A DNA stretch of 64,000 nucleotides, taken from positions 74,229,554 through 74,293,553 of the forward strand of contig OX485803.1 of the NCBI GenBank assembly GCA_950295325.1. Direction: 5' to 3'. The position numbers and the translations under genes are program-made. The notes beneath the pieces are model-generated. The model saw only the letters and a program-made list of their open reading frames with translations. It had not been told where the DNA came from and did no database searches. Below are positions 4,352 to 55,600 of this stretch, piece after piece; the stretch's first letter is position 1; each line of letters opens with the position of its first letter. The DNA is from Polytrichum commune. Lineage: Eukaryota > Streptophyta > Polytrichopsida > Polytrichales > Polytrichaceae.

Positions 4352-7300
4352 CTACTCCTCCTTGTACAAGAAAGGAGTCCACCAATCGCCCTCGTACTTG
4401 GGGTATGGGGCAATCCACTTCTCGGGTCTTTCAAACTTGACAGTAGTGAGGTTCCCTAACAAGGCCTCCTTTGGGGAGTCGACTGTGATTTCGCCCTTCA
4501 GCACTCGGTCCAACCTCAGCTTCATGAACCTGATCAATGACAAACAATCAAACCACAACGTCAGCAAATTTGACCTAAACCTTTGTTGCTATTGCAAATA
4601 TTTAAAGAATTCTTTTAAAATAAAGTACATAAAAAATCATGTGATTATATGAAAGTTTCCACTACCAAAGGTCTGTTTATCGGTTTAAGTTCGAGTTTGG
4701 TGCTTCATAGAATAGATACAATACACTTCACCATGTGTAAGACAACAGAAAAAAGTGAAGTGGAAATTCTAACATGCTGGTTCGAGGCTACCCTTCGGTT
4801 TTGATCTGTTCAGAAGTCATACAACTTATCAAAAATCATGTGACTCTATGAAAGTTTTAACTACCACAGGTCTGTTGTCGGTTTAAAATGAGATGACCTA
4901 CAATTTAACAGAAACCATGTGATTCTGTAAGAGTGTCCACTACCAAAAGTCCTGTTGTCAATTCAAATTCGAGTTTGGTGCTTCAAACAATAGATACAAT
5001 CCACTCCACTTCACCATGATGTAAGATGACAGAATCAGTGTAGATGAAATTCTAACAAGGCTGTGTTAACTTTTGATCTGTTGAGAAGTTCCTTCATTTT
5101 CTTCAAAAATGTAATATCTCGGTAAACTTACGTGATCCAAACTTTATCAGTTGAGACAAGAGCCGCGGCTGGCCTGTTAAGACGGCTGGCAACCTCAGGG
5201 TGCTTGTCAAGAAACTGAGGCTCAATGACCATCCAGAAATCTTGCTCCTTGTTTCTTTCCCCATACATACGCAATTTCTCTTGCATTTGCTCCTGGAAGT
5301 GCTCTTCGTCGTCCAACATGAACTTGGCATTGGCGATAATGTAGTAGTATGTCGTTTTCTATATGACAAAAATACACAGAGGTAATTTTCAGAGGCAAGG
5401 AAAAGAATGATAAAATTGAGCAATCATGACTCATGAACAGACAATCCTGCAACAGTTCTGCTGGCACTGCCTCAAGTCCCATACTCAATTTCTATCACCT
5501 GTTTGGTCAAAACTACTATCCTATTAGTGTGGGTGGGGAATTAATGTGGAAATAACTAATGTGGGTCACACTTGTTGTCTAGTCAGGGTGGAAATAATGT
5601 GGGCCCAAGAGCCCAGGTCCTCCCTTAAATCTCCCTGGAGACTTCCGACCAACACCTGTATTCATTGAAGCACAAAAGTAGCATGAAGTACAATAGTCAC
5701 CCACATCAATTTCCTAGAAAGGCAAATCTAATGTGGCCCAAATTAATTTCCTAGAAAGGCAAATTTAATGTGACCCACATTAATTTTAAGCTAGAGATTT
5801 GGCATAGGTTGAAAAATTATGTGGGTTCTAGAAAATTACTGTGGTCCACACCAATAGGACTATTTAGTGTAACTTTTTGTTAAGAACATGTTGATGTGCA
5901 TTGACCACTCCAGACCACTGCAATATGACTGACAGTCTTGGAAGCCCAAAGTTTTGTTAAAAACCACATCTACAAGTTTAGTAACACAGATACAGACTTA
6001 GCAGCTTTCCCCTTGAACTATGGCAATAGAAGTACTTTCACTTAGTAAATGGTACGTGGAGAAAGTGGTGTACAGACCTAAAGATGTAATTAACCACACC
6101 TCTCTACAGTCTTCCAAAGTGCAACCCAGAGCTACTATCCAGAAATCACTCAATAATCCATATCATGACATTTCCTAAGAACTTTCCAGAATTCCTTGGA
6201 ATCTTGGACTATGGAATGTACAAACCTGAGCAGTTGCAGTACTTGAAGACTCATTAGAACTGCAAGAAAACAAGACATATGGATATGAGAGGCAAGTAAG
6301 AGATATGCTAGATAACATGGACATGATGCTTGATCTAGCTAAGCTGGAGCCTCAGCAGTGCCATTGATAGCCTGCATTTATTATTGCCTCTAGAACAACA
6401 CAGTATCCATTCTATTTCACACTGTATTGTTAATCGAGAACCAGATTTCATACTTCTGCAAGAAAATTGAGATCAGACATCATTACAAGCCCCATTTCGA
6501 GATTTAAATCATAGGCAGGGTCTATCCGAGAAACATAAAAATCAGCGAAGGTCACACATAATATGCACACCAGAAGAATGGCTTTTACCACTTTAAATGT
6601 TCTTTCTCACCAAAGTGAAGTCTTCAGAGTACAAAAGTGCTAAATGAAGCATATAGACATCCAGGAGGGAACATACAAGGATTTTTGAATGTATGTGAAG
6701 AAATATGTGAGTGACTCAACCGAGAAAAAAAATTCATTGAAGGCCACACATGATATGCACATCAGAAGAATGGATTCTGCTCCTATGGATACTTATTCTC
6801 ACCGTAGTGAAGTCTTCAGAGCATCAAAATTGCTCAATGAGGAATACAGACAGTCAGGGGATAAACATACAAGGATTTTTGAGCTTAAATGAAAAACTAT
6901 GTGAGTGACTCGCAAGATTTTGAGTTGCGGGAAAATGTAACGACTAGTGGATTGTAAAGAGAGACGTACGTAGCAAGTTCTTTCTCCGCAGCTTGCACTG
7001 CCACTTGCTGAGAGGTCCTCATAGATATGGCCACTCCTTGCCTGCCGCCAAACACATTTCCCTGCAATTCCATCTACCTCATTGAGTGAGCCCTACGTTA
7101 TATGTCAGAATCACAACTAATTTTCCAGGAAACACATGCTTAAGAGTAACAATGCGGGATGGACGAAGCCAAAATAATGTAAGGGCTTCCTCGGTTGTGT
7201 AATGCGAACAGATAAGGTATACAAAAAGCATCAATTGTTCCACTAAGTCATGTTTACCCCTTACAAAAGAGAAAACCTTCTGAAGCAGAAAAGAAACATG

Positions 7301-7953
7301 TCCCAAGAGTTTCATTTCCTTACCCCAGCAGGAAGCTGTGAGGCTTTGGCTACTTGAAGCGGCTGCATCCTGGTGCTTCGCACAGCGAGTTTCACATACC
7401 CATTACTCTTTACAGCTACACCAGAGCTAAACCTCGAGCCTGCTCACAAAAGACAAAAACACCAATGCATCTATACATCATAATACGGAAAGATTGACAC
7501 GTAGGCCGTGAAACCCTTAACTTAACCCCCAAACCCTTCCAGCAAGCAGCCCAAACCTCTCAATTCTAGAATAAGCTCTTCATCGAGTTTTAAAGCAGGT
7601 TGAGTTCAACGGACACAAACTGTCTAGCACACAAACCAGAAACTATGAACCTAGCCAATGCAGGTACTCAGCTTCACATTCTCGACAATTAGGAGGAAAA
7701 GCCACATCGAGGCCCAATTTCCATGAAAATTAGGATAAGCGAACCATGGGAAGAAAACTAACCCCACATCCCAGCACATGGCCATTTGCGACCCTCATCC
7801 ACACATGAATCTGAATTCTTTTAGAGAGAAGCCTACCAAACTACATATCGTGGGGAATTTAAAAAAGGGAAGTGGAGGCGGGGTTTTAACAAACCAACCA
7901 TTGAGTGAAGAAGCCGCAGTTTGAGCCACAGTGGCTGCAGAGGTGCAAGCCAT
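4352..7953 (-). CDS. YCF54: YCF54-like protein (LCAA), subunit of Mg-protoporphyrin IX monomethyl ester cyclase, chloroplast
   Basis: Six coding exons on the minus strand: 7953-7899, 7439-7324, 7061-6970, 6259-6226 (only 34 nt), 5358-5132, 4529-4352. They sum to 702 nt, 233 residues, with phases agreeing at all junctions. Residues 1 to about 99 are a Ser/Ala/Arg-rich extension starting MACTSAATVAQTAASS, typical of a stroma transit peptide plus linker. From residue 100 the Ycf54 domain runs to the end: KTTYYYIIANAKFMLDDEEH, QEQDFW-type motif (KEQDFWMVIEPQFLD), RPAAALVSTD, FMKLRLDRVL, WIAPYPKYEGDWW. Family knowledge: Ycf54/LCAA is needed for the aerobic cyclase that makes protochlorophyllide's fifth ring, with CHL27/AcsF. 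It is divergent from OHP1, 542 bp between ATGs, and shares its first two exons with it. Introns 4 and 5 contain a MITE and tandem repeats. Start chosen because it matches the OHP1 start MAC(A/T)SAATVA. Confidence 0.93.
4633..5060. repeat. Diverged tandem repeat in last YCF54 intron
   Basis: Phrases such as AATCATGTGA(T/C)T, GAAAGTTT(C/T)(C/A)ACTACCA, GGTCTGTTGTCGGTTTAA and GAGTTTGGTGCTTCA recur with unit starts near 4633, 4830 and 4913. The last two units differ by internal deletion. Non-coding. Confidence 0.75.
5516..5869. mobile_element. TA-type MITE, family B, inside YCF54 intron 4
   Basis: Left end ...CCTATTAGTGTGGGTGG and right end CCACACCAATAGGACTATTTAGTG form imperfect inverted repeats next to TA. 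The same ends flank a larger copy at 44134-44722. The interior contains a short direct repeat (AATTTCCTAGAAAGGCAAAT, twice, about 5708 and 5743). Left tip is worn. Confidence 0.7.
6519..6912. repeat. Tandem duplication (about 195 bp unit) in YCF54 intron 3
   Basis: Two adjacent units share CACACATAATATGCACA/CACACATGATATGCACAT, CAGAAGAATGG, AGTGAAGTCTTCAGAG, AACATACAAGGATTTTTGA and TATGTGAGTGACTC. The copies lie about 6519-6718 and 6719-6912, directly upstream of the 34-nt exon's acceptor region in genomic order. The short frame that crosses the second unit is not considered a gene. Confidence 0.8.
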
Positions 7954-8495
7954 AGCCGAGAGTAGACCTTATTGCGTCGATGAGCTTCCGAAGCTTGGAC
8001 GTTGGTTGTGCACTCGCGCAATTGATATGGAATTCTCGCAGACCAGACTTAACTTACTGGCGGTGGGAGGGAGGGATGGGAAAGGCCTTCAAGTGGCCTT
8101 TGTGGATGAGACAGTCGCAGATGGGAGAGAGATTTCGGTTCTCAGGATTGGCTGAGGATATTGAAAGGGCCCCACTAACCCCTTCCGTAAGGCCCTCAAA
8201 TCTGTAAGGGCCCTTCTATCAAATCCTCATCTTACATAATGTAAGGTTCTGGGATGACCCATAATGCTCAAAATCCTTTTCACATGTGTGACATAGTCAC
8301 TCTTGGGAAAAGAGAAGCCAATTAGGGACCACATGTGTTTTTTGTCATCCACAAACTCTTCAACTTCCAAGGAAGGAAAGGAAGGAAGGGCGCCTTTCTC
8401 TCCATCTTCTGCCACCATCACCACAATTCCTGCCCAATTCGGAACCAACAGGACTGCAAAGCTCTTCGCAGTTTCAACGATAGGAATTAGCAGCA
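7954..8495. promoter_or_regulatory. Bidirectional promoter region of YCF54 and OHP1
   Basis: The 542 bp between the two start codons must hold both promoters and both 5' UTRs. Seen: GGGCCCCAC at 8167-8175, which fits the TCP-type element GGNCCCAC; a perfect palindrome AAGGGCCCTT at 8206-8215; a 15-bp palindrome CTTACATAATGTAAG at 8231-8245; and two CACATGTG E-box/G-box-like cores (about 8281 and 8331). GGCCC/TCP elements are common in promoters of co-ordinated housekeeping and organelle genes (known). Binding here is inference. Confidence 0.6.
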
Positions 8496-11245
8496 ATGGC
8501 GTGTGCATCTGCTGCCACAGTGGCGGGCATGGCTGGGGCACATCAGCTTGTGAGCCAATCTAAGGCTTCCTCATCACTCGGTGTGTAGACATCTTTTAAT
8601 TTCGTTCTCTTTCTACCTTGGTGTTGGTTTGTGTATCTTGTGTATTCAGGCATGTTTTCAGTCGGAAGGGGATTCATCATATTGTGAGGTTGGTTTATGT
8701 GAAGGAGGTTATCGTAATTTAATAACTCAAAACAAGAAAGATTGGCTCCCTATTCTTGCTTTTGTTGTAAGTTGTCGGGGATTTGAAGATGCTAGCTGTT
8801 GACCACTTGCAGTGGTTAAGTGTATAACTTTGTGGATAGGTAGGACATTTTCTTCCTTCTCGGTTTCAATTGTACTCAACTCACCCAATACGCCGGAATT
8901 CGAAGAATTGTTTTATGGAATTGAGAGTTCGGGCTCCCTGAGTGGTTGGGTTTAAAGAGTCGACTCTTGACTTCCGTTCTCTTCACCATAGTGTGGGTTA
9001 TATATATCTTTTGTTTCGTTTCATGTGTGAAGTTCGGTGTCGGAAAGGGATTCATATGTGAGGTTGGGTTATGTGAGGCAGCTTAGCGTAATTTGATTAT
9101 TTAAAACAAGAAAAAGTTGCTCTTTGGTCTTGGTTTTGTTGGAAGTGTCGAGGGATTTGAAGATGCTAGCTGTTGAGCACCTGCATTGATTAGGTGTAAA
9201 ACTTTGTGGTTTCAATTGTACCAAATCCACCCAATTTGCCGGAATTTGAAGAAATGTTTTATGGAATTGAGGTTTTGGGCTGCCTGAGCGGTTGGGGATT
9301 AAGAGTCTAGGGATAATGAATCATCCCAGTCGCAGACACGGCAGTGTTGGGATCTTGATGATTGTTGATGACTTTTTTGGATTCAGGCTCGAGGATTAGC
9401 CCTGGTCTAGCTGTGAAGAGCAATGGTTACGGAAATGTGGCCATACAAAACTCGAGGAGGAGGATGGTTCAACCGCCCAGAGCTGCAAAACTTCCACCTG
9501 GGGTAAGAAAATCTCTCGAGCCCTACACATTCTACAACAATTGGTGTCTCACTTGACTCCTTCAATTCTTTAATCCTTCAATTTTTGTATGACATCGCTA
9601 ACCTTTATGAAGAAAACCACCCGTCATGTTTAGTCACATATTTAGGGTTCGTATCAGGCGTCTTCTTGCAAAATTGGCGCAATGATTTTCCAATATCAAA
9701 ACACCACATGTAGAACTCGTTGTCATTAGAAACTACCTGGGGTAGTTTCCATGAGTGGCAGGAGTCTGATATTTAATGTATACTGATGGTGGTTATGCAC
9801 ATAGCAAACTCTAGATCTCCTATGGACATGGGTTACCAAAAATTGTGTAACAGAGCATTTTTACTGAGAATAAGGACAGATACTCATCATTAAAAAAGGC
9901 TTGTATAATTCGTCTTCTCACTTTAGGTTTGGGTTTGAAAAAAGAGAACAACTTTACTCCAATTTCATGTGTTTCCACATAAGCTTAAAGTAACGGACTG
10001 TCTGTTTTCAAGGATAAATTGAACAGAAGATGTATGGTATAATCACAAACAAAATCCAGTAAATGAATCCACATATGAGATGGACTTCATCACCTCACTG
10101 TGGCTTTCCAAATGAGAGGGTGTGGAATTAACCTCATGTGCTATACCACGTTGCAAGATTGGGTGAACAAACCGTTGACATGTGCACTTTGGAAGCATTT
10201 AGTTTTTTTTATTTCTTTGCGACTTCTAACGTGGCAGCGACCTTGCAGGTAGGGGAACCTAAGGAGGAGCCCAAATTGCCTGTGTCACTCTGGGGATTCA
10301 CTGAGAATGCAGAAGTCTGGAACTCACGTGCAGCTATGATAGGCATTTTCGGTATTGTGATTGTGGAAGCTGTAAGTACCTGTAATAATCTGCCAAATCA
10401 TTCTACTGTGATATATTTTTATTATTCATAGCATTCCTATTGAGTAATCTGGTGAAATCTAAGTTTAGGCATGTTCACATGGCATCAGATTTCACTTGAT
10501 TGTTCCAATCTTATACTACCTTCAGTTATGTAAGTATGGGCCAATGTGTTTTTTGGGTGGCTATATAAAGGCAGAAACCGGTAATAAGTTCAGAGCTTCC
10601 CTCTTCCTTAAGGAATTACCAAGCGATAAAACCTAAATATCTGCTCAAGTGAATCATAACAGAGGTAGATATTTGCTCATTATAACTGTAACTGCGCCAA
10701 GGTTTGCCATTGGTTAAACTTATGGTAGACTATCTATACCTGTGAATGTATAAAGGTTTTTGTACCCAGGAAGTCCATTGGTCAACGAGCCCATAAAAGG
10801 ATTTTTTTTCTTCTAGAAATTCATGTTCGTTCTAGTTCCATGGCCACCTTAGTTTGTACAAAAACTACTGTAAAGAATTTGAGAGAGCCACCCTAGCCAC
10901 AACTTTGTTTCGCAAAATATGGCATGAAAAGGTCTGAAGCTGGTCGTATCTCATATCAATTTCAGAGAGCCACCCTAGCCACAAGTAGAAAAATTTAGAT
11001 AAGACACTGGTGTGGTCAGCTACAGATACGCGTAGAATGGTTCTATGAAGCCGCTTATAAGTAAAGTGTCTGAAATCCCGTAAAATACTTCTGTTGTTCT
11101 TGTTGATGGAAGATCATTTCAGAAAGTGCTATCAGGAATGGAGCCCTGACATTGTCGACATGGCGTGTGCTTGCAGATCATCAACCGAGGAATCCTACAA
11201 GTGATTGGAATTGAGATTGGAAATGGCCTTGACTTGCCACTGTGA
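8496..11245 (+). CDS. OHP1: One-helix protein 1 (OHP1/LIL2), high-light-induced-protein type chlorophyll-binding protein
   Basis: Exons 8496-8580, 9387-9502, 10249-10371 and 11177-11245 give 393 nt, 130 residues. Residues 1 to about 60 are the transit peptide (MACASAATVAGMAGAH...). Mature N-terminus likely follows AAKLPPG. Exon 3 has WGFTENAEVWNSRAAMIG, containing the LHC-superfamily ExxNxR motif (E89, N92, R94) at the start of a single membrane helix (about 94-112). The end GIEIGNGLDLPL is the OHP1 signature. Family knowledge: OHP1 with OHP2 and HCF244 (the plant Ycf39) binds pigments and helps build photosystem II reaction centres, at thylakoids. Length is slightly above the roughly 110 residues of Arabidopsis OHP1, because of the longer transit region. 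Neighbour: divergent YCF54 with homologous exons 1 and 2. Confidence 0.95.
8600..9315. repeat. Tandem duplication (about 360-380 bp unit) in OHP1 intron 1
   Basis: Copy 1 about 8600-8965, copy 2 about 8985-9315. Shared strings include ATTTGAAGATGCTAGCTGTT, GTCGGAA(A/G)GGGATTCAT, GAGGTTGG, TTTATGGAATTGAG and (G/A)CCGGAATT(C/T)GAAGAA. Both are non-coding and diverged by perhaps 15-20 percent by eye, so the duplication is not recent. Confidence 0.85.
9503..10248 (+). other. OHP1 intron 2
   Basis: AT-rich intron without coding signals; ends in a polypyrimidine tract and TTGCAG before exon 3. I see no repeat or RNA gene in it. Confidence 0.6.
10372..11176 (+). other. OHP1 intron 3 with a short direct repeat
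   Basis: The intron holds two copies of GAGAGCCACCCTAGCCACAA, about 10881 and 10964, 83 bp apart. Nothing else is recognised. Confidence 0.6.
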
Positions 11246-14928: not shown

Positions 14929-16665
14929 TCACGCGATCTCGGGAAACATCGAGAAGCATACTTCGAAGTCGGAGGGAGGCGAGAGGGGTCGCGAGTCTGG
15001 CTCAGGATGTGACATCGACAGGAGCTGCTCCAGGTAATCAGTTCCAAGGTCTTCCACCTCCAGCTGTAAGCATGGCTGGGACATGGCCATGACCATGGTC
15101 TCTTCGTTATGGCATTGCTCCGAAATCCGGTTTGTTGAATCGCCGATGCTGTCGGTCAACAGCGATGGCAAGCCACTCAATTCTTGTGCGGTTTCGAGTT
15201 TCGGCGATGTTGGAGCAGTTTGTGAGGATTCGCCTTGAATTTCTATTAGTGTTGGTGTGTCTGTGGGAGTTGAATTGGAAAGAGAAGAAATGGAAGCTCG
15301 AAGAGGGAAATTGAGGAGAGCTCTGCACCCTCGCATCTTAAGAGCAGCCGCATCGTATGCAGTGGCAGCTTCCTCCGCAGTGTCAAATGTTCCCAGCCAA
15401 ACCCGAGCTCCTTGTCTTGCAGAGTCTCGAATTTCGGCTGCAAATTTACCCCAGGGGCGATGTCTGACACCTCGGTAGTGCGGAGTGCTCTTCACTTTGA
15501 TCGGGTCATATTGCTGCCATTCGCCACCATTTTCCATATCCTTGTTTGCGGAAGCGGGATCCTTGCGTCGTTGGAACCCCATAGCTGCTGCTTCGGGAAA
15601 CGCGCGACGAACTGTCTTCCGTGGCATCTGTTTTGGCATAGGATTCGGATGATTCGGATGATCGGCGGATCCAGATGACCCCTGCTGCAGCACATGACTG
15701 AACGGAGTCTCTTCGGAGTCATTTTCGTTGGATGGAAGCTGATGCTGCGGTGGAGATGGCCCATGCTCCTGCTGCAACGGATGTGGGAAATCTGGTAGAG
15801 ATGTTTCCCATGGCTGTTGATGCTGATGGTGTACATGGCTTGTTGGCCATGGCAAGAGTTCCTCCTTCACTACAGTGGCAATAGCTTCGGAAGGTGGAGG
15901 AGTGTGAGAATTAGATGCTTGCTGCGACATTGCAACGCTCTCATTGCTACGTCTCGACCAGGACTCCATTGACGATGCCAGTGCCCCTAGGGCCGCCTGT
16001 GCTTCAGGCATATTCTTGAAGATGTCCTCCGAGAATTGTCGGTGTCGGCTGTCAAAGGTCTGGAAATCAGGCTCCCATTTAAACTGCTGCTGATGAGCAG
16101 CAGCAGCGGCCATGGAGCTCCCCGCCTGCTGCTGTTGCATTACAACTTGAGCTGAGCGGCCGAGGGTTTCGCGAATACACTCTGTAATATTTGGGCCGTG
16201 TAATTGGCGCAGTTGGTTGCCTAGGAAGAACGTTCTCTGGTAGTGTTTCTTCTCCAGGGGCTGCTGCTGCTCTAGTAAGCGGCCCACCCCTATTTCATCC
16301 GACCACGACCGCTTGTGTAAGTACTTCCCCGAGGAGCTCGAGACGGTGGTTTCTTCATCGTTGCCGCCTCCATGCTGCAGCTTCGGAGATGACAGACAGG
16401 GGAAATGGTGGTTAGCATACGACGTAGTAGAAGATGGCGAGGGTTTGGCAGCAAGGGCGGCAAGAGGGTCACAATCCTGAAATTGCGCTTTGAATGAGTC
16501 CAGAGATGACGATGTTGATGATGGTGGTGATAATGACAATGAGGACGAGGATGGTTGCTGCTGCTGTACCGTGGTGGCTATGGAGCTGAATTCCGCACCA
16601 CCACCAGATGTGCTGGGCGCTATTTCTGCCTTTCTCGCGCGCTTCGAAAAGCTGAAAATATTCAT
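14929..16665 (-). CDS. AP2/ERF-domain transcription factor, intronless, 578 aa
   Basis: One uninterrupted frame begins [19 protein letters not shown] single AP2/ERF domain lies at about residues 395-453: [20 protein letters not shown], then [20 protein letters not shown] and [13 protein letters not shown]. The Ala and Asp at the WLG-proximal positions (AEIRDS; A and D of the ERF type) mark the ERF rather than the DREB branch, closest in wording to group IX/ethylene-response factors such as ERF5/ERF6 (inference). The nuclear protein binds GCC-box promoters. The rest is low complexity: Ser-rich and Gln-rich runs in the first 60 residues, Gln/Ala tracts near 175-195, His/Gln/Pro runs near 280-315, a basic patch ([12 protein letters not shown]) and an acidic C-terminus ending [14 protein letters not shown] that may activate transcription. 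It is longer than most angiosperm ERFs (200-350 aa). Confidence 0.9.
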
Positions 16666-16704
16666 CGTCTTCCTGACACGCTTCTCACCAACGTCACTAA
16701 ACTC

Positions 16705-16759
<55 letters not shown>

Positions 16760-29259: not shown

Positions 29260-29735
29260 GCCCATCAGACTGAGCTTATGGTTGGGCCAGCAGACGAGCT
29301 TACGGTTGGGCAGCATATAAGCTTACGGTTGGGCAACAGACAAGCTTAACCGGTTGGGCAGCATATAAGCTTACGGTTGGGCCAGCAGAAGAGCTTACCG
29401 GTTGGGCAGTATATAAGCTTACGGTTGGGCCAGTAGACGAGCTCACGGCCGGGCAGCAGAAGAGCTTACCGGTTGGGCAACATATAAGCTTACGGTTGGG
29501 CCAGTAGAAGAGCTTACCGGTTGGGCAGTATATAAGCTTACGGTTGGGCCAGTAGACGAGCTCACGGCCGGGCAGCAGAAGAGCTTACCGGTTGGGCAAC
29601 ATATAAGCTTACGGTTGGGCCAGCAGACGAACTTACGGTGGGGCAGCAGACAAGCTTACCGGTTGGGCAGCATATAAGCTTACGGTTGGGCCAGCAGACG
29701 AGCTTACCGGTTGGGCAGCATACAAGCTTACTTGG
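29260..29735. repeat. Minisatellite with 119-bp higher-order period
   Basis: Basic unit about 24 bp: (A)AGCTTACGGTTGGGC(C)AGCA with alternating tails GACG or TATA. Two unit types alternate (ATATAAGCTTACGGTTGGGC and GAGCTTACCGGTTGGGC). The string GTTGGGCAGTATATAAGCTT recurs exactly 119 bp apart (29401 and 29520), showing a higher-order unit duplicated about twice. Confidence 0.9.
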
Positions 29736-49665: not shown

Positions 49666-52600
49666 CTATGCCAGCATGCTAAAGAAGTTGTTTGCATACT
49701 GCATTGGTCTCACATTTGGATGCCCCTGCAACATGACAACAGCAAGGTTGAGCACTAAAAAATGTTTACAAGGTATTAAACAAGTTAATACCAAAGGTCT
49801 ATACTTCACATGTGCAAACAAACACAATGCCTTCATAGACCAAAACTAACTGTGGAGTTGCATGTAAAAAGGTCTACTTTGTGTGCTGAACTCAAATAAG
49901 ACCAGACACAATCATAAGTAGAGGTGAACACTTACCACTGCATTGAATTTTGTAAACTGGGGTTTCATCTCTGGAGCCTGAAATCGGATAAAGGCTCCCT
50001 TGTTGCCCATCTGTGAAAGAATTGCCACAAAGTGTACATGAGTAAGGTCGAAGCAACCAGAGTCGACCAGGTCTGTTTAACCGCTCAGTAGGGTAATGTA
50101 ATGCTGACATGGATGAGATCTATATTTTTTAGGCAAAAGGAGTTAAGGTTTATGTGGTGGCGGCTTGTAATTGATTAAGGTAGAGGAATCCATAGTCAAC
50201 TAGGTCCATATAACCACTCACTAGGGTCATGTAATGCCAACATGGATGAGATCTACATTTTTTAGGCAAACAAAGCTAAAGTTCATGTGATGACGGCTTG
50301 TGATTGATTACCCTCATAAGAGTTTTGACAATTGTTGTAGCCAAGGGCTAGCATTGAGATGAGCAATTTTGGGTTAACATATAGATCAACTATGTGTAAC
50401 CCTAAAACTTAGGCTTTGAAATCTGTAGCAATTTCCATATTCATGATTTTATTTTATTATAATTCCTTGCATTCCCCTTAGAATATGTTTCCCTTTGAAA
50501 GAAAAATAATTCCCCGCTATTACTCCCCCTAAACAGATGCAGACTCTTATTTTATAGATTATAGATGCCACAACCTTGAATAGCGGGCAAAAAACGCCAA
50601 CTCACCGCAGCAAAGAGAGTGCATAATGAATTACCTGGTCACAGTAGTTGGGGGCAGAAAAAACAGTGATCAGTTTGCCATCATGGTCCACTTCATAGCC
50701 TTCGTCCTTCACCTCATGTGACCTGACCACCAAATCTGTTCCAAGATCACCAATCAAATAAGCTTCTTTACTAGAATGAACTGTCAGAAATCCCCCTGAT
50801 TAAGATACACAGAGCAATAATAGAGAAGCCTACTAGAAACTTGTTATTGCTGATATCTAGAGAAGAGCTTGTATTTACCTGACATAAGGCCAAAACAGCT
50901 AAAAAGTACACAAACTAGCCAGAAAAGCTGTAGCAAAAGAGTATAATATTGTACCAAGATTGTTCTCTTGCAAAAACCGATGAGTGACATCAGACCCAAA
51001 AGCAACACCCACTCCTCGTTTGCTTGGTGCTCGACCCAACCCTGGATGTGGGTCACTCCATAGCAGTTCGCACATCAAGCCTGGAAGCACAAAATAATTT
51101 TATACAAACACAGTGAATAGATATACATTGTGGACAACAACCAAATTCAACACAAAGATTGGAGGTATTCAAAGGGAATGGTGACACAGTTGACATGACA
51201 TCATTAGTGATCATTGGTGCATGGGCCTTTACCTCCCATCACCTATTTTTTCAAATCAACATAAGTATCATAGACACCTCACTATACAGATACAAAAGTT
51301 TCAAAGCTGCACTAAACAACAAAAGCTATCACTATCACATCCTACAAGTCCAATTCAAAATCAAGCAATGTAAAGAATCCAACCAAGGATATGTCAAGAA
51401 AGAACACAAGACCAACTTACCTTCATCAGGAGGCTCCCTGAAGCGATCAATTGCACGTATATCAGATAATTTCACACCATCACTGCTGAAAAGTCCCCCA
51501 TGGACAACAAACACTTTCTCGTTCAAGACATTGGCCAAGGGTAAGCAGCAGAAGATGTCTGCAAACAGCTCAGCCATGGTATCACTATACTTTGTCTTCA
51601 CTTCCCCATCAAAACCATAGATCTTGTTCATACTCTTGCTTTCGTGATTGCCCCTGGAAAGATACAATCCTGTTGAAAGAATGCCAAGTACTTGAATCAA
51701 AAGACAGTCCGAGGAAACAGTGGAGTGGAGAACTATTATACACACCCAATACCAAGATTCTTCAAAGCAACAGATCTAACTCACAACACGTGCAAGCAGG
51801 ATAAACGTGACTTGCTCCTGTGCAACCTACTCGAAATAGTGTAAATTGCAAAGTTGACTATTCACAATAGTCCTGTGCACTCCAGATACCCAGACACTTC
51901 TTGTAGGCATCTAGCACATTCATTCCAAAACTTCAAGAGGCAGCACAGATTTAAAATGGTCTCCTCCACTGACCACAACAACCAAGCTCAATTATATTTG
52001 TTGACATTTACTTACAAAATTCAGTGCTTATGAAGGGGGGCTAGACACCATATTTCACCACTCTTAACGAAATAAGTCATGGGTTCTAATCAGACAGCCA
52101 CTAGTCCTTCAAAACTTGTAAGAATACTTGCAGAAAGGATACACATTGGAAATGATTTCCAATAAGCATCAGCAACTGAGTGACCTATCCTCCTAAAGAA
52201 CAATGCAACATCCACAAAGCCTCAACATCGATTACTTAGATGTCATCACAAGAGCTAACCTGTAGGGTAGAGGCACTTGAAAGCAAATAATGTGAAAATA
52301 ACCTCCACCGAGAAAGAGCCGCGATCAACAAAATCACCATTAAAGAGATAGGGATTCTCTTCAGAAGGAAGACCATTCAGCTCAAATATATTAAGCAAGT
52401 CATAATACTGCAAGACCACAATATGAACAATTAAACAATGCTCTCAGCATTCCAGTGTAATGCATCTTACAAATCTAGCCTATAAGCTGACAATAAATGT
52501 GTCCACTTGACAACTGCCTTTTGCAAGTAACTGGCCAATGAGAAAAGAAAAAATTGAATGGGAACCATGAGACCCCATCAGGTTTTCTGAGTTCATGATT

Positions 52601-55600
52601 GAAAAAGAGATCATACCTGCCCATGTATGTCCCCACAAACAGTAAAATGACCTTTCTCTGGCACTGTGATGTCAACCAAGGTGGGCGAAGCTAACAGCAA
52701 TTCCCGAGTTTGCAAAAGTATTTGGTAAGCATATCTGAACCACATTGCTTTCTGTGTAAGTGATACTTCAGATAATCTGAGTGCTCAGAATGGAAATATT
52801 CACTACCAATGCAAGCTGCTGAGACATAATTAAAAGAGGTCATTCAAGGAAATTATTGAAGGGCTTGCATATGTTAATCTGCTTGAAAAGCCTGTTTTGT
52901 ACAGGAGGAACACCTTTTATGTACACTGCGCTGATTTTTAAAGTCATCCATCATCTGCTTGACGAAGTCCAGTGTGATATTATCCCCTTCTAGTCTAGCC
53001 CCTTGATATGAATCCTCCACCTCTGAAATACAACCCAACCAGATCCATCAGACTTTCTGTTAGAAACAAAATGCTCCTGCTTGATGGGAATAGTCATGCA
53101 ACAAAACATAATAGAACAAGGGAACAAGAGGGAGTTTTACTCGAGCTCAATTCATCCGACGGTATTCTTGCTTGCTTCAGCGTTGGACTGCCAGTAAATA
53201 GGACAGAGTACTTCACTGGAAGAAGCTTCAACAAGGGGTACACGAAAATCGCCAAGAGCAGACAGATGATTGGCATTAAGCGGAAACCCCTTTTCGACAC
53301 AGTTGACCTGGTGGAGTCCACGCTGGCGCCTGCCAGCGGGGCACCACTGTTACAATCTGGGTAGCATGACCTAGCTCCACCAGGCCTTTCTCATTACACA
53401 TTTGAAAAGACTCCTTTCAAGTCATCAAAGGTAGTTGCATAGGCCTTCAAGCTATGGCCTTTGAACCCTTATAGCACTGCCCATTTACAAATCCTAAGCC
53501 TCCCAGATGACACTCAAAAGACATATTTGCTCTACCATTTGCACTAGTCACTGTAGACCCTGGACTTAAAACGATCTTCAAGAGCAGGATGAAGGACACT
53601 GAACATATGCTGCAAGGCCACTAGCAAGATGGCCAGACAGAGTACAGAAAATGAACCACTACAATAGGTTGCAATGATCAGGAAGGCATTGCTGAAATCA
53701 CAAGAATGATACAAAATTACACAACAGGGTACATAACAAGTTTCAACTGGGACACTAAATGTGAGTACCTATGGAACGGAAGTCCAGAGATTCAGCAACC
53801 GAGTGTCTTTCATGATCCTCATTGGCAATTGCCTCTTCAAATCTGATTTTTGTGACCGCTTTTTCACATTCCTTTAGTTTCTTAGTTGCATCAGGATCCT
53901 TTGGCACAATCCTTTGGACCTGGAACAAAAAAAAACCTTGTGTCTTAACAAAATGCCCCATAACAAAAACTGCATATGGAGCTCTCACTGGAGGCGATAA
54001 CCTAATGTACTGCTTAAAACAATGAAAAATGATGCAAGTAAAATGATGTAAGTTACTGAAGTCACAGAGAGGAAGAATTTCTGAAAAAAAAACTCAAATA
54101 GCCTATGCACTAGAACCTCGTGGCCAGGAATAAAAGCTCCAGATTTTATCTTTCACATTTGTTTCATTTTCTTTTGCATCTTATGTCTGATTGCAGTTGC
54201 TTATCTATTTTACTTTTTAGAATCTCTATGAAATAAAGGCAAGCTCAACTTGACCACTAAACTCTAGAGAATCTAGATAATTTTATTTTTCCAAAATGAC
54301 TATAAACACATGTTGGTTTTAACTATTCATTGTTTTATGACTTTTAATGTTATCTCCTATAAAACTTATCTTTTATAATTCCTTAGACTTTTGCCACAAA
54401 CATACGTACTTGGCTTTACCACTAAACTCAAAACTCTAGATAAAATCTAAAGAACAATCAAATCTTGATCACTACACCGTCTAGTATTACTTGCTATTCA
54501 GAGTTAGGCAATAATTTTTGCTGCGAATGTGAGATTTTACCAAGTAAAGTCATTTATGTTGTAGTATGTCCGGATATCCTATTTGATCTTTATTAATAAC
54601 AAATGAAATCTATAGTAACAAGTTATAGCATGCATGACTCCAAATAGAAAGTGACAATAAATTCCATAAATGGTGTAGTGACAACAATTGCCTGCATACA
54701 CAAGTAACCTATCACAATTAACATGTTCAATAATGTCAACACAATACACATACCAAGAAACCTCACCAGCTCAGGACAAGAGATGAGCAGATCTTGTGCC
54801 AAAACCGAGGGATTGGCTGGACAAAGTTGAAGTACACTTTCCCAAATTCCCAAACATTTCACAAAGCTTCCACCCTGTATCAGGTCATTTACTGCACTCT
54901 TTCCATACTCAGTGAATGCAGCCATCCATCAGACCAGTAAATGACCTGGCACAACATGCTCTGAACAAGGTAAGATAGAAACCTGTTTAAAGTCTTTCAG
55001 TGCCTCCTTGAATTTTCCCAGAGCCAAATAGGCTGCACCTCGTCTGTAATAACCCTGTAATCCACACAAAACTGCCTTCAGGATGTGACAGATACTGGCA
55101 AGCCTTTCACCACATAATGGATAGTAGCTAACTATTTTGATAACCTGCACAAGGGTCAACGCTTGTAACTCAATAATTTAATAGCTCCAAACCCACAATA
55201 CTATATGTTCACTAACCTTCACATATTTTGGATCGACTTCAATAGCCTTTGTAGCATCCTCAATGGCACTTCCATATGATTCCATTTTAGTGTGCGCAAA
55301 TGCGCGATTTGCCCAATAAACTGCATTCTGACTATTCAACTCAATTGCTTGGCTATAAAGTTCTACTGCAGAACTGAATCTGTGGGCTGCATCCATACCA
55401 AACACATTACAATTTTGTCAATCAACAATCACCACCGTAAATCTGCAATGCTTTTTCAAGTTACCAAAATTCTCACCACTATTTCAATTCCAGAAAATCC
55501 CGCAACTTCTATTGACAACATCCAGATTTTCAAAAAGTCAAAATCCTTACAAGTGACGACATGCATCAAAAGCTGCACAGGTCCATTGCCACATACTTAC

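Follow-up and report, generated by a model that had tools for sequence, protein, structure and literature searches.

The capture of transit peptides by one gene from another is already known (PMC8018952, PMC4522979; here and below each paper is cited for a portion of its text). In Populus and other Malpighiales the plastid-protein gene rpl32 has its transit-peptide part from a duplicated copy of SOD1, a nuclear gene for another plastid protein, Cu-Zn superoxide dismutase; having just moved from the plastid, rpl32 needed a first transit peptide (PMC8018952). For chl-fus, encoding chloroplast EF-G, a targeting exon is thought to have been recruited by intron recombination, with a phase-1 joint proposed and the donor unnamed (PMC4522979). 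The divergent genes At5g06290 and At5g06280, one of which encodes a plastid protein, share a short upstream region of 351 bp with the two directions active in different tissues, and shared exons go unmentioned in its abstract (PMC2772851). Here we describe the genes YCF54 and OHP1 in a stretch of 64,000 nucleotides (nt) of Polytrichum commune DNA (the window; assembly GCA_950295325.1, contig OX485803.1, positions 74,229,554 to 74,293,553 of the forward strand). Like rpl32, YCF54 appears to owe its transit-peptide part to the duplication of a nuclear gene. It differs in that donor and chimaera lie head to head next to each other, intron 1 was retained in an inverted copy, and the recipient was probably a nuclear gene for a plastid protein beforehand. 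Unlike the case of chl-fus, the phase-1 intron would have come along in the copy and the joint would be a phase-0 intron.

The comparisons below indicate, with a probability that we put at roughly 80%, that YCF54 received an inverted duplicate of the 5' part of OHP1, which made YCF54 a chimaera.

Homology of the 5' parts

YCF54 on the minus strand and OHP1 on the plus strand are divergent, with start codons separated by the 542 nt of the intergenic region (7954-8495). Sequence comparison has shown that homology between their 5' parts, in inverted orientation, covers exon 2 and intron 1 and ends just inside intron 2. Exon 2 comprises 116 nt in both YCF54 (7324-7439, minus strand) and OHP1 (9387-9502, plus strand), has GT-AG borders and ends at a phase-0 donor. 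The two copies align free of gaps, agree at 80 of 116 nt and encode 18 identical residues out of 38, the strongest likeness lying near the start of the exon (43 nt at 86%). Comparison of the 5' part of YCF54 with the whole window by blastn yielded an E value of 6.5e-13 over 129 nt that were 71% identical, and exon 2 reached an E value of 1.9e-9 by tblastn. Exon 1 of YCF54 (7899-7953, minus strand) consists of 55 nt reading MACTSAATVAQTAASSLN plus one base, and that of OHP1 (8496-8580, plus strand) of 85 nt; each length leaves one base, placing both introns 1 in phase 1. Nine of the first ten residues encoded by exon 1 are identical, and the alignment of the two exons contains a single 30-nt gap (ten codons) together with two compensating single-base gaps. 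The protein score of both exons together was reached by none of 5000 shuffles.

The strongest evidence, overlooked in the original prediction, is the homology of intron 1 between the two genes as judged by alignment. The interior of YCF54 intron 1 (7440-7898, minus strand, 459 nt) aligned globally with positions 8945-9375 of OHP1 intron 1 (8581-9386, plus strand, 806 nt) with a score of 550, compared with 327±29.5 for dinucleotide shuffles, none of which reached it (0/1000). The local alignment score was likewise reached by none of 1000 dinucleotide shuffles, and that of a separate shuffle test by none of 300. Random real segments of the window, tested in each direction under three scoring schemes, also failed to reach the intron score (0/1000), and the reverse-complement control of the shuffle comparison was not raised (785/1000 and 904/1000). 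Comparisons of intron 1 of each gene with intron 2 of the other were rejected, the scores being reached by 112 and 277 of 300 shuffles.

OHP1 intron 1 contains a tandem duplication of approximately 300 nt (8661-8961 and 9039-9307) in which the copies are 75% identical. The first tandem unit (8590-8961) aligned more weakly with YCF54 intron 1, the scores being reached by 4/1000 shuffles globally and 6/1000 locally. Since 106 sites of a three-way intron alignment unite the tandem copies, versus 32 and 24 for the other pairings, the tandem duplication took place after the inverted one.

The likeness of the two genes extends roughly 10 nt into intron 2 and stops there, with arms at 7314-7451 and 9375-9512. 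Continuation through intron 2 was rejected, as the score over the first 212 nt past the border was reached by 238-350 of 1000 real segments and that across the whole intron by 261 of 300 shuffles. Because the similarity ends at this point, the sequence places the joint of the chimaeric YCF54 gene in its intron 2 (7062-7323, minus strand), which is in phase 0. YCF54 exon 3 (6966-7061, minus strand), which shares a 9-mer with exon 2, was tried as an extra copy of that exon and discarded, since 236 shuffles and 162 real segments, out of 2000 each, reached the DNA score and 234 of 5000 shuffles the protein score.

Upstream of the genes, the 200 nt preceding each ATG were aligned globally in inverted orientation with a score reached by 7/1000 shuffles and 0-5/1000 real segments, and an 11-nt word is common to both sides, 156 nt ahead of one start codon and 151 nt ahead of the other. 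Approximately 200 nt of upstream DNA probably belong to the shared duplicate. The words TATA[AT]A, CACGTG and GATAAG were absent from both strands of the 542-nt region. The original prediction proposed an inverted duplication of exons 1 and 2, a proposal backed more strongly than was argued there, with intron 1 and, less strongly, the upstream DNA also common to both genes.

Constraint on the shared peptide

The original prediction also held that most early codon differences are in third positions and that the peptide was kept by selection. Over codons 1-10 of exon 1 and codons 1-14 of exon 2 the differences number 4, 0 and 10 at codon positions 1, 2 and 3, to which exon 1 contributes 1, 0 and 6 and exon 2 contributes 3, 0 and 4. 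The third-position pattern is therefore found in the first 24 compared codons, mainly through exon 1, and is lost over the entire exon 2 (14, 8 and 14). The proportions of synonymous and nonsynonymous differences (pS and pN) were 0.55 and 0.07 in the first 24 compared codons (Fisher p 5e-5) and 0.52 and 0.22 over all 48 (p 0.0016), with synonymous and nonsynonymous divergences (dS and dN) of 0.78 and 0.52 in the last 24 codons of exon 2. Selection on the peptide is most evident over the first 24 codons compared and weak beyond them; by these estimates the later part of the exon 2 peptide is much less constrained. The value of dS over the 48 codons was 0.87. Identity between introns is inflated after gapped alignment. 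For this reason, and because the 48-codon stretch used for dS is too short, the duplication was left undated.

Identity of the encoded proteins

The YCF54 model of five exons predicts a product of 223 residues. Exon 4 (5132-5358, minus strand) encodes the Ycf54 domain, and exon 5 (4352-4529, minus strand) a plant-type C-terminal extension and the stop codon. The protein matches Pfam family PF10674 with an E value of 1.1e-26 and 93.4 bits against a cut-off of 25 (first 165 residues), and the solved cyanobacterial Ycf54 structure 5m2p with an E value of 7.9e-22. A second Pfam match (E 0.062) was below the family cut-off and was dismissed as chance. YCF54 of green algae and plants has a C-terminal extension with nine conserved residues (PMC7319587), of which eight are present here at the listed spacing with the last tryptophan replaced by F. 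The 84 residues of the 5' peptide had no match among solved structures up to an E value of 10. Exon 3 reads, in our judgement, like the end of a transit peptide. In barley, Ycf54 has three exons, and mutations assigned to exon one affect the beginning of the mature protein (PMC13221752); the five exons found here could represent two added to three. At 5699-5786, in the large intron 3 of the modelled YCF54 gene, 2.4 copies of a 37-nt unit occur.

The four-exon OHP1 model predicts a product of 130 residues, with a chlorophyll-binding helix motif in exon 3 (10249-10371, plus strand) and the stop codon in exon 4 (11177-11245, plus strand). The match to PF00504 (E 6.8e-4, 20.6 bits) was under the cut-off of 22.3, and the matches among solved structures were to RedCAP (E 3.2e-10) and HliD (E 3.7e-4). 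Recognized from its sequence, the helix motif of OHP1 is that of the LHC superfamily. What we take to be the Arabidopsis OHP1 sequence aligns with this OHP1 from RAAKLP to the end. The mature parts of YCF54 and OHP1 belong to different protein families. Relatives of neither mature protein were found in viral_contigs, and none of the window YCF54 in genome_contigs.

YCF54 acts in the cyclase (PMC7319587), and OHP1, together with OHP2 and HCF244, serves the assembly of photosystem II (PMC12142464). The corresponding roles in chlorophyll synthesis and photosystem II assembly are assigned here by family, and both proteins are expected in the chloroplast. The shared N-termini are interpreted as putative transit peptides. 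On re-reading, the coordinates, exon lengths and intron phases of both genes given in the original prediction were all correct, and the peptides that it reported (MACTSAATVA and MACASAATVA at the start, QLPAG and KLPPG at the end of exon 2, for YCF54 and OHP1 respectively) agree with the sequence.

Proposed origin of the chimaeric gene

In the proposed mechanism, the 5' part of OHP1, from exon 1 through intron 1 and exon 2 as far as the opening bases of intron 2, would have been copied in inverted orientation, probably together with about 200 nt of upstream DNA. Counting these 200 nt, the copied segment would span about 0.8 kb in YCF54 and 1.2 kb in OHP1. The copy would have been attached to the remainder of a nuclear YCF54 gene, with the join inside a phase-0 intron, and the resulting YCF54 would be a chimaera with an OHP1-type transit peptide ahead of its own exons 3-5. 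The shared peptide would import the precursor, with cleavage presumably in or before exon 3. The separate tandem duplication in the OHP1 intron would have come after the inverted event. In kind, the event is exon shuffling and not convergence: an entire 5' end was shuffled and its transit peptide captured, with an inversion that is unusual for such captures.

Similarity by itself carries no direction, and a copy of the YCF54 5' part placed onto the body of OHP1 would leave the same likeness. The direction is suggested by the end of exon 2, which reads RAAKLPPG in OHP1 and is followed there by the helix exon; at the aligned position YCF54 has QLPAG. The Arabidopsis protein, again as we take it to read, has RAAKLPEG at the place matching RAAKLPPG. 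Because AAKLPPG, encoded by the 3' end of OHP1 exon 2, matches this presumed mature start, OHP1 is favoured as the likely donor; transfer in the opposite direction is improbable, since it would make the coding of OHP1 mature residues by exon 2 a matter of chance.

Equally improbable is a source in a third gene for both 5' parts, or in a family of transit-peptide exons spread through the genome. Other genes are known to have targeting exons in common (PMC8018952, PMC4522979), and the copy search covered the 64-kb window, so that further genomic copies are possible. Within that window no third copy of exon 2 was detected by blastn up to an E value of 0.1, and two independent captures do not predict neighbouring copies in mirror orientation.

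An old head-to-head pair whose first exons were homogenised by gene conversion over the inverted repeat has a chance just as small. Inverted repeats are able to convert each other, and the peak of similarity around the start of exon 2 is in the direction expected of conversion. Conversion requires prior similarity, however, so that it could only supplement a duplication, and an older duplication would be compatible with it. Codons 1-14 of exon 2 do not decide the matter, since three of their differences are in first and four in third positions. Unrelated transit peptides alike by composition, with coincidental 116-nt exons, have next to no chance: although transit peptides in general are rich in S and A, the homology of intron 1 and the composition-keeping protein shuffles, both recorded above, rule this out and place the similarity above that of unrelated transit peptides, the level against which the original prediction had proposed to judge it.

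Several observations weigh against the inverted duplication of OHP1 onto YCF54, or against parts of it. At other lengths the global upstream score was reached by 21-109 of 1000 shuffles and by up to 116 of 1000 real segments; local upstream alignments were not raised over five lengths (64-413/1000 shuffles), and under looser local scoring 10/300 shuffles reached the score. Exon 1 alone attained tblastn E values of 0.026 and 0.10 at best. The last 72 nt of exon 2 are identical at just 43 positions, yet none of 5000 shuffles equalled this. Both gene models are predictions from sequence, and the transit peptides are putative. The 3' border of YCF54 exon 3 is uncertain, as the junction with exon 4 requires the weak donor GTCTCT; a better-looking donor, GTACGT, lies 4 bases before it and is out of phase with exon 4, and a small additional exon or another border is possible. 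Finally, the donor role that the original prediction gave to OHP1 stands as likely through the presumed Arabidopsis sequence and not through outgroup gene structures.

The pairing of YCF54 and OHP1 is not an inherited cyanobacterial cluster as far as a simple scan shows. No hli-like open reading frames were found by a pattern scan, checked on OHP1 only, near ycf54 in 80 loci of the 183 found, many of which end early at contig ends. In titles and the starts of abstracts among the matches listed, in a literature coverage that leaves out most subscription journals, the YCF54/OHP1 pair is undescribed. Most LHC-like genes are intron-scarce (PMC3020630), and the portions of PMC5253381, PMC3020630 and PMC3017844 that were available contain no OHP1 exon borders or N-terminal sequence.

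Other features of the window

A Tudor domain followed by a sub-threshold nuclease-like match, as in Tudor-SN proteins, is encoded at 1141-1575. A long uninterrupted frame on the minus strand (14929-16725) encodes an AP2/ERF-type transcription factor with one AP2 domain and an N-terminal part that is rich in glutamine and serine by eye. An array of units of approximately 24 nt (AGCTTACGGTTGGGCAGCAGA..) extends over 29273-29731 with reported periods of 48, 71 and 119. Pieces of a PPP5-type protein phosphatase gene, with Metallophos and PPP5 matches, are located on the minus strand at 51335-54093.

Biological significance

The captures by rpl32 and chl-fus concern genes that left the plastid (PMC8018952, PMC4522979). 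YCF54, probably already nuclear, appears instead to have gained the complete 5' end of a neighbour, intron included, in an inverted duplication that would also have made the two genes divergent. Both copies persist side by side, so the joint, the intron and the upstream DNA are all open to comparison, and close relatives can reveal in what order the events occurred. A single promoter region for both genes is a reading from position only, and the pair may share promoter elements. Co-expression is to be assumed with caution because the two directions of the At5g06290/At5g06280 region act in different tissues. That the inverted capture gave YCF54 and OHP1 matched expression and import, through the copied promoter-proximal DNA and targeting exons, is a tentative and rather unlikely proposal. 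If true, the locus would be an evolved gene pair that couples, within a single lineage of plants, the supply of chlorophyll to the assembly of photosystems. Since their families place one product in chlorophyll synthesis and the other in the assembly of photosystem II, the question of shared expression is directly testable.

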